The notes under the pieces were generated by a model, which saw nothing but the letters and a program-made list of their open reading frames with translations, did no database searches and had not been told where the DNA came from. Of a stretch of 64,000 nt of DNA, positions 48,947 to 64,000 are shown piece by piece. Origin of the DNA: Plumapathes pennacea (Eukaryota > Cnidaria > Anthozoa > Antipatharia > Myriopathidae). Within the stretch, counting starts at the first letter, position 1, and every line of letters begins with the position of its first letter. The DNA lies in the NCBI GenBank assembly GCA_964036295.1, contig OZ038470.1, positions 8,523,078 to 8,587,077 of the forward strand, given 5' to 3'. The position numbers and the translations under genes are program-made.

Positions 48947-50770
48947 TCAAGGGAAAGCTTGAACCAAGTTTCCGGGCTCATTATTGGCACGAAACTGTCT
49001 ACCAGCAATAGACGCTTCTGACGCTGACTCCTTTGAATATGCGGCGGTGCTTCCAGCCAGATTCCAGGCATCATCACTCAGCGTGGCATCCAAATCTGAT
49101 AAGACACGCGACGGGGCGTCAGCGGGGTTGTCTTTCAACGGCACGTAGCGAAGTGGCAAACCCAGATTCCTCTCAGTACAGAACTGGAATAAGGATTTTA
49201 ACGTGGCCGAGATGACGGGCGATTTGGACACCTGCTTTTCCCAACTTGCTACCGTACTTTACTATCCACGAAAACATCGATCCTGGCGTAGTGGAAGTCG
49301 TTTGCAAGGTTTTGAAGGGTATACAGGAGAGCTAAAGTCTCTTTGGCGGTGATGGGGAGCCCACGTTCATGAACGTCCCAATAGCCTCGTGTTTCCACCG
49401 TCGTTTTGCCTTCCTGTAATATCTGACCGCTCCAACCGGAATTTTCTAATGCATCAGAAAATGACTGGGCTTGGTCGTGGAATTCCGACCTCGAAAGGTA
49501 AGCAGTCTTCCAGGTATCTAGGAAGCACCAGTGCACGATCTCTTGTCGGAGTGGCTCTGATAGCCGTATTATGGCGTTGGACTTGGGTGCCTTGCTTGCA
49601 TTGGAAATGGCTTGGTAAACCAAGTTGGTATAAAGCTTGGCTGCCGCTACCAGCAAGGCGAACGAGGTGGTCTTGCCGGAGAATTTCTGTAGGTTTTTCA
49701 ACGATACTGATTTGTTTTCCAGGATAGCTTCCCTCAATGCTGCAAATTTGACGCGCTTGTCTTGTGGAAGGATAAATGCTTGTCGCTGAGAATCACAAAT
49801 GTACCCCAAGAAGCGGATGGATGTGGCCGGTTGTAGAGAGCTCTTTTTGAGACCTATGAAATATCCCAGCGATATAAGCGTGGAGCATGCGATGAAGGCC
49901 ATTTCTGCAAGCTGATAATGTGTGAATACCCCGACGGGAGAGCCGTGAGGCAGTCGTAATTGACCAGCATAACGATCGTCAATGTACTGTGAGCAGGGCA
50001 CGCCTAAGGATCGTATAAAATCTGTAGCAGCTAAACCGATGCTATGGTACACAAAGGCACTGGCTTTCCATCCGAACGGGAGAGTAGCGTAAGTGAAATA
50101 CCATCCCTGCCACTCCAGACCAAAGAACGTAGAGCTAGATGGGTGGAGGCGCACGTGGTCATAACCACTTTTATCATTGAAAGTGGTTTGAAAATGGTCG
50201 CTGTTCACATACCGGATGAGATCAGTGAGGTAGTCTAACGTGAATGGACTATTTAGTCCAGCAGTTAAGAAAACGTTCATCGTGGCAAATGCGTGGCTTT
50301 GACGGTTCCACGGTGATTGGCATGACCAAATGAGGTGGCTGACAGGACCCGACTTTTCCCACTATATTTAGCGACCCGTTAACGATCCTCTCCATGATTG
50401 TCTTAAATATGAAATCATGAAACGCATCACACGAACGTGAATTGGGAAAGATGCTCGCTGGCGGGATGTCGCTGCTGTATTTTTTGCCTTGGAAGGTTCC
50501 ATCAAAAGGGGTGAAGAACTCGGATATATCTATTCCCCGGGATATATAGGGTAGGATCTCGTCCTTCTTGGGGTAGTCTGCCAGTATTGAAACCCATTGT
50601 GGGAGATTATTGGTGAGGTTACCCGCTGTAAAGGAATCTGGATCCCGGAACCTGAGCATACGTGGGGAAGCGAAAACCTTGCCGTTTGATACTGAATAGG
50701 CGGACGGGAGTGGTCCAGTCCAGTTGGTAGGGTTGCCTTCCCAGTCACACCACTTAACCTCGTGGTTTTG
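48947..50770 (-). pseudogene. Reverse transcriptase/RNase H of the DIRS-like element
   Basis: N-terminal part WCDWEGNPTNW ... PHLVMPITVEPSKPRICHDE. RT core LPFGWKASAFVYH and catalytic QYIDDR (about 49980). RNase H region GYWDVHERGLPITAKETLAL, VFVDSK, YVPLKDNPADAPSR. Two frameshifts are visible, near 50250 (at CTAAATAGTCC) and near 49247 (between VDSK and VASWEKQV). The protein would copy element RNA into DNA; here it cannot be made intact. Confidence 0.8.
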
Positions 50771-51127
50771 GTGTTCTTAGGGTGCAGAATTTTGAAAACA
50801 CCCTGGCGGTGATCTGAAGAGAAAAGAAAAAGGGGCGAAATACCCATAACGACCTTAAAGAAAAATAAAGGGAAGGCCCCCACCAACCAAACCGGACCAG
50901 GAACCCGCCCGAGGGCAAGTTATAGGGTGGAAGCCGAGTTTACCCTTCTGGTCACGATTATGGAAGTGGGGAAGAACTACCCAATAAGGATCAAATGCGT
51001 GTTTTACACCTTTTATTGCAAACAATATGAAATATGACTTGATTTGTATAAAGGGATGTAAGGAAAAAATGACAATATATTCCATCGAAGATTCTACTCT
51101 ATCCTTACAATGAAAGCATATGATAGG

Positions 51128-51590
51128 TTAACGCCTGAAAAACGCCCAACCTCGAGGGCCGAACCTGACACCCCCCTTGCACTCTCTAGCAATGTGGCCT
51201 CTACGGCCGCAATTGAAGCAGTTGACGTTGGGTGTACGCTGCCTAGACGGATAAGGAGTAGCAGGTCTTGAGCGCATGTAGAAAGGACTGGATGTACGAG
51301 GTGCAGTCCCTTGGGGCGCCTTTAGAGCTTTCTGAATCCCTTTTGCGATTTTCACCTCTTCACTTGTCCCTACAAGCTTTAAAAGAAGGGATTGCAGTAG
51401 CGGACTGTCCAGTAGTGGGCGTGTCTGGTGCAGGATAATAGCATATCTGGAGGTTTTATCAGAGGTGGTTTCCCTGGCGGTGTCAACGAGGTGCTCCAAA
51501 GCTGCAATAGTGGCGTGGGGTCAAAAACAACTTCTTGTAATTGCCGTAAGGAGGCCAACTCTTTTTTAAGTTCTTCCAACTATGAGTAAA
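51128..51590 (-). pseudogene. Gag C-terminal part with CCHC zinc knuckle
   Basis: LKKELASLRQLQEVVFD, then (after a frameshift near 51525) ATIAALEHLVDTARE. The C-terminus NCFNCGRRGHIARECKGG has perfect CX2CX4HX4C spacing for nucleic-acid binding. Followed downstream by RT. Confidence 0.7.
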
Positions 51591-57130: not shown

Positions 57131-57141
57131 AGGGACTTTAA

Positions 57142-57372
57142 AGGTGATGTTACACGAGACGATTTTTAACGACGATATTTCGCCCAACACCTACAATTTT
57201 GTAGCTAGCGCTTTGGCTTTTACTCTAAAAACATGGCGAACCTTCGCCAAAGGCAGAACTTCGTGCAAAGATTGCTATTCATTGATAGTTCGAAGATTAC
57301 TAGGCAAGAAGTATAGAAAAAAAAATGTTGCGCAAAAAATCGTCGTTAAAAATCGTCTCGTGTAACATCACC
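57142..57372. mobile_element. TTAA-flanked MITE
   Basis: TTAA (57138-57141) then AGGTGATGTTACACGAGACG. At the right, CGTCTCGTGTAACATCACC then TTAA (57373-57376). Long inner stem with ATTTTTAACGACGAT. The TTAA duplication fits piggyBac or Kolobok-type targets. Confidence 0.8.
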
Positions 57373-57381
57373 TTAAGATAC

Positions 57382-59511: not shown

Positions 59512-62500
59512 TTACATAAAGCCAAACATTGACATCATGGAATTCGCATACGCCATTGGTTTAACATCAGGATGAGGCTGAAATGCAAATGACCTTATTA
59601 TTAAAAGAATAAATCCCTGCTATTACTGTGCACTCGTCAACTGTTATTTGGGTGGGCACATCTTTATTGAACGGTTCAGGAGTTTGACGCTCGATTTGGG
59701 CAGTAAAAGGGTTTGGTTGAGTTGCTGTTAACTCACCACTGCTTCATATGAAGTGAACTTGGGCTCGAGGTCCGACCCCATGGTGATGAACGCTCCTTTG
59801 TTACCCATCTGATCGCTGCAACATAAACAAATAAAAAAGATAAACAAAAATATACAAATCCCTTGCCAGCTTTCTTACTTCCCCAACACTCCTCCGCATT
59901 CTTTCTTTTCTCTTTGCCCCACTCCTCTGCACATTTTGCCTTTTCTTCCTCTCTTTCAACAACAACAACAACAAAAAGTTTCACATCTTCAAAAAACTTC
60001 CTTCCTCCATCTCTTACTTCCTTTCTCCTTCACTATTTTTCACCCTCCTTTGCTTCCTTTCTATTTTTCTGCCTTCCTTCCTCTGTTCCAGGTTCTTGTT
60101 CCACCCCTTACTTCAGATAACTGTCGAAAGTAATCGTGTAGTTGCTTTGGTTTGCGTTTTATTAGCTTTTGGATTGGTCCAAACAGGTTTGCAGGCATTC
60201 TGGACCAATCAGGAACAAACCCAAAACCCGATTACAATCTGGTCACGCAAGCACACAATCAAGTGGCGGTGATGTTTTCTCCCAAAAGTTCAGAAAATCA
60301 AATGGCAAAACAAATTTTATGGACCCTCATGAAAAGCATTATTATTATGTCATTAATTCCAAATTTCTTCGGGTTGTGGTTACGTGAGAGCTTTTTCTTC
60401 AGCCTTTGGTACCTCTAACAAAACTGTAATTTGTCAAACGTTCCGAACAGAAACGTACCAGTAGTTTGGTGCGGAGAATACAGTGATGCATTTGCCGTTA
60501 TGTGCAACCTCATATCCTTCAGCCTTGACCTCATGACTTCGGATGACGTAGTCTGCAACATGAAAACACATGGTCACGTGATCGGATGTCCTTTCCTCAG
60601 CCACTCAGCACCCCCCCCCCCCCCCAAAAAAAAAGAAAAAAAAAAAAGGAGAGCATGAACACAAATATTCCTATGCTCATTGCAGATTCTTTTCTCTTCT
60701 GCGCCTTCGTTGTAGGAAAAAGAGCTTCATTAAGAGGACGAGTTGTTCCTAGCATTTTACCAATGTCGTTGGTTCTGCAGAAAGTCTCCGTCACATCTGG
60801 TCCAAACTGCACCCCGACACCTCGCCTACTCGGGGATCTTCCGGGCTGAGATAAAAAAGAACATAATTTATCCCCTGAGCTAGTACTCCCCTATATTCCC
60901 TAAATAGGGACGTCTCCTGAATAGGGTATGGTTTTTAGGGTTCTCTGTCTTTGCCAGGATATACAATTTACACTTTAGCGACTTGAACAGGATCATCTTA
61001 GTGCCCTCAGGCCTGCAGTATCAAATGAGGTATCTATTGCTTCCGAAGGTAAAGGAGAAATTCAATGCTCTGTTGTCACCAGAATGTACGTTGTCATTGC
61101 CACGCCGATGTGGTGTTCGTAAACTAAAAAGTTTGAGGGTTTAATCTTTAAAACAGAATTGCAAATCAAACTACTTCTCTTAGACAGAATAGTAAAATTC
61201 AGATGAGTACACCACACCCCCTTCCCCCTCCTCACTGGGAAACTATCAAGAAGCAATCGCGGGTGTGCTGTATGAAGTATGCCACCTATGCTGATATTTC
61301 AAGTTGCTGTGGCGAAGGGTTAGCCTGCAATATTTTCGCGCTTTGCGAAGCAGAAAAATACAAGTTTGGGCTATGTGACTCCTAGCTGCAAAAGGCCTAC
61401 TCAACAAACAGTTAAAAGTATCTGAACTGGCATAGCTGCAACAGTTTTAAGGTGTAACTAAAATGGTCCAAACCGTCTCAAATGCATGTGTAAATGTTTT
61501 ATTGATTTAGTCCCTGGAGCTTGCCCCTTACCTCTTGTTGGGGATCAGACCAAAGCAAATCACACATCAAACCTGAAAACATGAAAAGAGAAGGACAGAC
61601 ATCAAGAGAAAGAGAGAAAACACAGAGCGGGGTGGGAGGAGGAAATGAATGGGGTAGGGAAGGAAAAAAACCACTTAAGAGAAGAAAGGGAGTGAGAGAA
61701 AAGAGGAAAGAACGAAGGAAAAAAAGGTAGGTTAAAAGAAGGATGAAAGAGAGGGAGGGATGGAAAAACTATTGAAGGAAAGAGGAAAAGGAGCAGGGAA
61801 GGAAGGGAGAAATAAACAAAAGAGGGAAGGAAAAAAGAAAGGCAGAATTGATGGAGCCAAGGAGGGAAGAAAACAAGAAAAGGAGGGACAGAAGGAAAGA
61901 AAGCAGTTTAATAAATTTACAATACATCTGGAAAGCCTTGCTTAGTTTGCAAGTTCTGTATGAAAGAAGGTGAAGGCAAATAATATTGCATCCATCCTGT
62001 GAATATCTCCCGAGTAGATGACTTTAGCTGAATAACATAAAAGCAGATGACACATCACCTTCGTCAGGAGGTTGTCTATTTCGACTAATTACTTTCAACT
62101 CATCTATCGTCACATCATCTCGGCTGAATAGTCCACCATGCATAACCTAGAGCAATAATAAATAAATAATAATATTTTGATATTGCTCTTGATTATATGC
62201 TGTGTGTGTGATTTTTTCTGTCTTGTACATTGCAATGCATACCAGCACTTTGTTATTGAGTAAGTGGCAAAGTGGCAGCCAGTTGTACACTTCTGTGAAA
62301 AGCTCTGCCATCTCCACAGTGTATGTATACTGGAGTTAAGGACCTCATATTCGTAGATCAACTTCCCTTCAGCCCTTGAGTTCTAAAACTGATATGTCAG
62401 CAATTTAATTTCATTACTTGCAAAAATTAAAAACTTAGGATTAAAGAATTACTTAAATCCCTATAAAAACTGACCTAAAGAAAATAGCCTTTTCAGCAAA

Positions 62501-63185
62501 AAAATTGAGATTACAAAATGTTGGTCTCTCAAAAACTAAGATTGCCAGGAAACTACACATACACACATCATATCACCAACAACATTTTTAAATCATGACA
62601 TTGAAAGGATATTTAGACTTCACTTCTCCTTCAAACCCATACATCTGATTCATTGAAGTACTTTCATGATTTCCTGCAAAACAAACACAAATAAACAAAA
62701 TAAACAAAAGACAAGGCTCCAAATAGCCCAAAGGCAAGTTGACTATCACTCTCTGGTCCACATAGTGAGGAGAAAGAAACCTCTGTATGCACCATGTGCA
62801 AGATTACATCATGCATTATTTAATTTGTAAAAAGACAATCAACCAATGGGTGTGTTCAGCTGACTCTTAGTAACATGAGTTTAAGAATTTTAGCTCACAA
62901 AAACCGGTTTCTTTATTTCTTTTTCATCCAAAGCTGTGAGCAGTGGCACATCAAATGACTTTGCATGCAGATCAGAGATTCCTTGCTCCTTGGAGCCTCT
63001 GTCCAGCAGGATAGCAGTGGTGTGTGGCAAATGCAGACTGTAGACTTTTCAACCTCTGCGGTTTTACACAATGCATGAGCTACTACAATTGCAACAACTG
63101 CTGAACCAGTAGGACTTCTTTGTGTTGGCTGAGTTCCCAGGACTTAAACACTAGTCCAAGAGAATCATTAAAAAGTGAGTTACAC

Positions 63186-63276
<91 letters not shown>

Positions 63277-63771
63277 GTAATGTTTTAGTAGGAGCAAGCT
63301 AGCAGACAGATCTCAAGCCGTACATGTATTACAGTTGTGGATCCCACTATTGTTTCATAATATTATTGAGATTTGTTTAAATATTAATTTATATTTTTCT
63401 GGTCTGCAGTCTGCATTTGTCACACACCAGGATAACAGTCAGAAAGTATGATTATTTACTTACCTCTGGACATGAAAAAATGATCAGGGTACAAAAGTTT
63501 GAAGCTAAATAATGTAAAGATGACTTCACAGGAGAAAGAACCTCTATCTACAAAATCACCGTTAAACAGCTGATGGCAGACATCAAGGAAAACATGCAAA
63601 TTCCTGTCTATACATTTGAAAACACAAAATGCTTTAGCCTTCAACACCAACAATAATCTTTAAAAAAGATACATAAGGATTGTCTTTGGACGGCCGCCCA
63701 TTGAGTTCAAAGATATTTAAAAGATCGTAGAATTGGCCATGAATATCTCCACATACAGTGAACTTTCCATC
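59512..63771 (-). CDS. PPP5C: Serine/threonine protein phosphatase 5, catalytic half, multi-exon
   Basis: PP5 is a PPP-family metallophosphatase with an N-terminal TPR domain that binds HSP90 (family knowledge). Exons 5' to 3': 63673-63771, 63464-63569, 62613-62673, 62243-62324, 62059-62146, 61532-61572, 60761-60845, 60459-60552, 59737-59815, 59512-59577. All phases join without error and the last exon ends in TAA. Metal-binding and catalytic signatures are intact: [44 protein letters not shown] and [14 protein letters not shown]. The C-terminal [14 protein letters not shown] matches the PP5 autoinhibitory tail. The linker [11 protein letters not shown] and DLLWSDPQ separate PP5 from PP1/PP2A. 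The TPR exons lie beyond base 64000. One intron is AT-AC. Confidence 0.97.
60611..60650. repeat. Poly(C)/poly(A) junction
   Basis: About 16 C followed by A-rich tract, in the PPP5 intron between exons 60459-60552 and 60761-60845. Confidence 0.9.
61560..61905. repeat. Purine-rich tract in a PPP5 intron
   Basis: AAGGAAGG/GAAAGA low complexity. On the gene strand it is a very long pyrimidine tract upstream of the exon 61532-61572 acceptor. Confidence 0.9.
62243..62673 (-). CDS. PPP5C: PPP5 exons 3 and 4 flanking an AT-AC intron
   Basis: Exon 3 (62613-62673) carries RGNHE through [11 protein letters not shown]. Exon 4 (62243-62324) carries [18 protein letters not shown]. With an AT-AC junction the protein reads [18 protein letters not shown], matching PP5 with no gap. 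A GT-AG reading needs GAA|GTGAAG as donor and an AG before TATAC, which deletes VKSK and adds YT. Confidence 0.9.
62325..62612 (-). other. PPP5C: U12-type AT-AC intron in PPP5
   Basis: The intron starts ATATCCTTTC, identical to the U12 5' splice-site consensus, and ends TCCTTAACTCCAGTATAC. That tail contains the canonical branch site TCCTTAAC about a dozen bases before the AC. The flanking codons join in frame only at this junction. Confidence 0.88.
63188..63277. repeat. (AAT)n microsatellite
   Basis: About 30 perfect units in the 790-base PPP5 intron between exons 62613-62673 and 63464-63569. Confidence 0.98.
63570..63672 (-). other. PPP5C: Possible second U12-type (GT-AG) intron in PPP5
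   Basis: The donor GTATCTTTTT is one mismatch from GTATCCTTTT, and TTTTCCTTGAT lies 12-13 bases before the CAG, as in U12 branch sites. The intron is 103 bases. A U2-type reading is also possible. Confidence 0.5.
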
Positions 63772-64000
63772 CTACAAGAAAAAACCATAAAAATCAGGTA
63801 CAGTTTTTCTGCTCACTTGGAAATCAACTAGTCATAAATGAAAATAATGTATGAGTAATGTAAGGTAGAATTGATGCTTTGGTCAGCTTCCATCTTCAGA
63901 GCAAGCTATCAACAATGATATTACCAAGTTCAAACTTTATAAAAACTTGGTGATATATCTCTAGTGAGAAAGAGGGAGAAAAAATTTAAGTGGATCTCTT

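Follow-up and report, generated by a model that had tools for sequence, protein, structure and literature searches.

Excision of U12-type introns requires U11, U12, U4atac and U6atac. In the minor spliceosome, the donor of an intron is recognised by U11 and then by U6atac, and the branch site by U12. The consensus for the U12-type donor and branch site is printed, in the same form as used here, in two publications (PMC2831892; PMC2846911). The donor rule RTATCCTT of the second tolerates a T for one of the two C residues at +5 and +6 (PMC2846911). A third source gives an optimal distance of 11–13 nt, which we take as that from the branch point to the 3′ splice site, and counts two minor introns in 50 minor-intron genes and three in 3, with human and mouse alike in this (PMC6717393). 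The genes for the regulatory B55 subunits of PP2A are described as a phosphatase-related family of which 100% contain minor introns (PMC6865273). Here we describe the PPP5 gene of the antipatharian Plumapathes pennacea. On the evidence of its sequence, it almost certainly carries a U12-type AT-AC intron for the minor spliceosome (62612–62325) and very probably a second minor intron with GT-AG termini (63672–63570).

The 3′ half of PPP5 occupies the last 4.5 kb of the window, by which we mean the whole stretch of 64 000 nt that was analysed, and is encoded on the minus strand. The 5′ part lies beyond position 64000 and thus outside the window. PP5 proteins characteristically have an N-terminal TPR domain. 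Ten exons were recognised, which join to 801 nt with a single open frame that ends in a stop codon and specifies 266 residues. The first exon recognised inside the window (63771–63673) ends with NPY. The next exon (63569–63464) has the probable GT-AG minor intron on its upstream side and a U2-type intron on its downstream side. The AT-AC intron is flanked upstream by exon 62673–62613 (about 19 residues and part codons) and downstream by exon 62324–62243 (27 residues). The remaining six exons, up to the stop codon, are 62146–62059, 61572–61532, 60845–60761, 60552–60459, 59815–59737 and 59577–59512, and are separated from each other by U2-type GT-AG introns (within 59512–62146).

Identification of the gene as PP5 is supported by comparison of the ten-exon product with proteins of known structure. 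Among the best 60 of 92 matches in PDB, the highest score was obtained with a PP5 chain (452.9 bits for 1s95), and the best chain other than PP5 or Ppt1 reached 250.7 bits. Aligned with the 1s95 segment, the product has the same residue at 186 of 261 positions, and its match to PF00149 scores 138.7 bits. The catalytic domain hence resembles that of PP5 more than those of PP1, PP2A or calcineurin. We take 1s95 to be human PP5, 7obe the Arabidopsis and 3icf the yeast protein. The PPP5 sequence had no match in the viral contig collection, and in the genome contig collection it matched only two distant loci, both from bacterial metagenome-assembled genomes.

Several other features were found within and around the gene. 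The intron 62058–61573 contains a long purine-rich stretch of the plus strand (about 61600–61900), and a long AAT microsatellite (about 63187–63277) is located in the U2-type intron that separates the AT-AC intron from the probable second minor intron. Downstream of PPP5 there is a 49-nt inverted repeat (57141–57374), the arms of which are 94% complementary and 136 nt apart; it looks like a MITE-type element. Remains of a retroelement are located on the minus strand at 49249–51520, where RVT_1 matches with 23.9 bits, less than its cut-off (29.6), and a zinc knuckle matches with 29.4 bits (cut-off 20.8).

The AT-AC intron (62325..62612, minus strand) is 288 nt long. Read on the minus strand, the succession of exon, intron and exon is ...AAGTCTAA / ATATCCTTTCAATG...GAGGTCCTTAACTCCAGTATAC / ATACACTG..., so that the 288 nt between AAGTCTAA (to 62613) and ATACACTG (from 62324) start with ATATCCTTT and end with TCCTTAACTCCAGTATAC. 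The donor ATATCCTTT (62604..62612) agrees with RTATCCTTT at all nine positions and the branch site TCCTTAAC (62335..62342) with TCCTTRAY at all eight. The AC end follows 11 nt after the branch A. The intron is in phase 2 and splits the final K codon of EVKSK, immediately ahead of Y. Its removal joins two PPP5 exons and restores the PP5 reading frame. An intron with U12 signals had been predicted at exactly this place. In the seven other introns of this part of PPP5, agreement with the U12 consensus is limited to 3–7 of nine positions for the donor and 5–6 of eight for the branch site. U12-type introns lack a polypyrimidine tract before the 3′ splice site, but the AT-AC intron is not set apart from the U2-type introns in this respect: 10 of the 17 positions before its AC are pyrimidines, and the seven U2-type introns have 10–15. 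Intron 62242–62147 was considered as a further minor intron, having a U12-like donor (7/9), but was kept as U2-type as its branch site match is just 5/8.

The chance occurrence of such signals was estimated from 100 copies of the window generated with a first-order Markov model, with both strands searched. A perfect AT-AC set was defined as donor, branch site and AC with a distance of at most 2 kb from donor to branch site. It was seen once, compared with 0.08 expected per window. The donor octamer by itself is not significant (two seen, 2.06 expected). When one donor mismatch is permitted, seven pairs are found in the window against 5.15 expected; three of the seven use a single branch site, that belonging to the AT-AC intron. 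These pairs therefore provide no evidence of minor introns outside PPP5 in the window.

The position of the junction was examined by scoring all 1286 in-frame and stop-free combinations within about 45 nt of both intron ends against the 1s95 segment. The top score of 1052 is common to five junctions, with intron starts from 62608 to 62612, all of which give the same residues at the join. Only one of the five, 62612–62325, has recognised termini, namely AT-AC. The original prediction held that no other junction restores the protein string without a gap. This is correct for the exact string, apart from the shifts within 62608–62612. However, the best GT-AG pair (62599–62312, score 1042) is also in frame and gapless, and it retains VKSK and alters three residues (TVE to PFN). 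Further GT-AG pairs are 62599–62330 (1036), 62599–62303 (1026) and 62623–62330 (1023).

In comparisons of full proteins, all 10 PP5/Ppt1 chains listed gave their highest score with the AT-AC version; as several of these are near-copies of each other, they do not amount to ten independent tests. For AT-AC, 62599–62312 and 62623–62330, respectively, the scores are 452.9, 448.4 and 439.3 bits with 1s95, 405.5, 403.5 and 393.4 with 7obe, and 284.3, 282.7 and 277.6 with 3icf. Together with the sequence signals, this speaks for the predicted AT-AC U12-type reading and for the PP5 identity. The margin over 62599–62312 is small (4.5 bits with 1s95, 2.0 with 7obe and 1.6 with 3icf).

We also built U2 splice site matrices from the seven U2-type introns of PPP5, each being left out when it was itself scored; with seven introns, the scores obtained are rough. 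On their own matrices, the donors of these introns score 1.9 to 9.6 and the acceptors 3.5 to 17.3. One alternative is an ordinary U2-type GT-AG intron at 62599–62312, with the U12-like signals as a coincidence. That intron is in frame, free of stop codons and gapless, it scores 1042 against 1052, and its deficit on 1s95, 7obe and 3icf is only 1.6 to 4.5 bits. Yet it scores lower with all 10 chains listed, and its sites are poor ones for the U2 type, with the donor AATGTCATG at −0.4 and the acceptor, ending in GTGGAG, at −5.0. It would further require that U12-type donor and branch-site signals, both perfect, occur by chance at the very junction, and we consider it very improbable.

Another GT-AG intron, 62623–62330, would delete VKSK and add YT, perhaps as an alternative isoform. 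It is in frame and its donor (3.8) is inside the range of the U2-type introns, but the acceptor (0.7) is under theirs. Moreover, the exchange for YT affects a stretch, VKSK, that reads VKAK in 1s95, and the score drops from 1052 to 1023 on the segment and from 452.9 to 439.3 bits on the whole chain, being lower with each of the 10 chains listed. We consider this intron, too, very improbable. It had been claimed that a gene finder restricted to GT-AG introns would lose VKSK here and gain YT. Such an outcome is neither the sole nor the best-scoring one, since three other GT-AG pairs outscore it. The claim was thus overstated, as the error of a gene finder could take several in-frame forms.

A further alternative is that the AT-AC intron is handled by the major spliceosome, as U2-type AT-AC introns are known (PMC6717393). 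The intron 62612–62325 has, however, the full U12-type consensus at donor and branch site, with the end 11 nt after the branch A. Scored as U2 sites, its donor and acceptor reach −5.4 and −13.4, a part of which is the cost of AT and AC in matrices made from GT-AG introns only. Processing of this intron by the major spliceosome is extremely improbable, and we retain the U12-type assignment.

A second probable minor intron, overlooked in the original prediction, is located further upstream in PPP5 (63570..63672, minus strand) and is separated from the downstream AT-AC intron by one U2-type intron. It has a length of 103 nt, GT-AG termini and phase 0, and it follows directly after NPY. The intron starts with GTATCTTTT, contains the branch site TCCTTGAT (63582..63589) and ends with CAG, 13 nt after the branch A. 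Its donor matches the consensus at 8 of nine positions and its branch site at 8 of eight. The donor GTATCTTT conforms to the RTATCCTT rule with one C to T change, and TCCTTGAT conforms to TCCTTRAY. Scored as U2 donor and acceptor, its ends give −0.4 and −0.8, which is in both cases below all seven U2-type introns.

In favour of the second intron, when both strands of the window are counted and the introns themselves included, five of 7673 GT dinucleotides fit the minor donor rule, and four of 7377 AG dinucleotides have the branch site at this spacing. At the junction itself, four shifted pairs, which have no recognised termini, score 1053 compared with 1052 for the GT-AG pair (V for L). As seven one-mismatch pairs are found where 5.15 are expected, what carries the case for the second intron is its place at a junction between PPP5 exons, a coincidence that was noted after the fact. 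We consider 63672–63570 highly likely to be a second, GT-AG minor intron of PPP5.

From the signals, their spacing and the restored frame we infer splicing, the snRNA pairings and a minor spliceosome machinery in the organism. U11 would pair with the donor ATATCCTTT of the AT-AC intron and U12 with the branch site TCCTTAAC. U6atac would then take the place of U11 at the donor, and ligation of the exon that follows the AC, at a distance of 11 nt from the branch A, would give the PP5 sequence. A search of the window against Rfam returned no families, and hence no minor snRNA gene within the window.

Retention of either intron brings a stop codon into the frame, beginning at intron nucleotide 23 in the AT-AC and at nucleotide 37 in the GT-AG intron. 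Removal of both should therefore be needed for a whole catalytic domain and an active PP5. A tentative extension is that PPP5 in this lineage depends doubly on the minor spliceosome, through an AT-AC and a GT-AG intron in its catalytic half, and that PP5 output could track the activity of that machinery.

A literature search for PPP5C or protein phosphatase 5 in connection with minor introns found no report, supplementary gene lists aside; published tables may well contain one. As a conserved phosphatase gene with a pair of well-marked minor introns, PPP5 should be of use for studies on the evolution of intron classes. It is also a warning for gene annotation, because more than one GT-AG alternative preserves the reading frame and the error would go unnoticed.

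From the known context, a minor AT-AC intron would be expected in a cnidarian gene. Compared with animal AT-AC U12-type introns, that of PPP5 has the same donor, branch site, spacing and AC terminus, and there is nothing distinctive in the intron itself. The PP2A regulatory B55 subunits are, like PPP5, phosphatase-related with minor introns; they are regulatory subunits, unlike the catalytic chain PP5. The intron thus adds a well-founded but unremarkable member to a known class and leaves knowledge of the minor spliceosome unchanged. With probably one GT-AG and one AT-AC intron, PPP5 resembles the described genes with two minor introns and differs from them only in being another gene.
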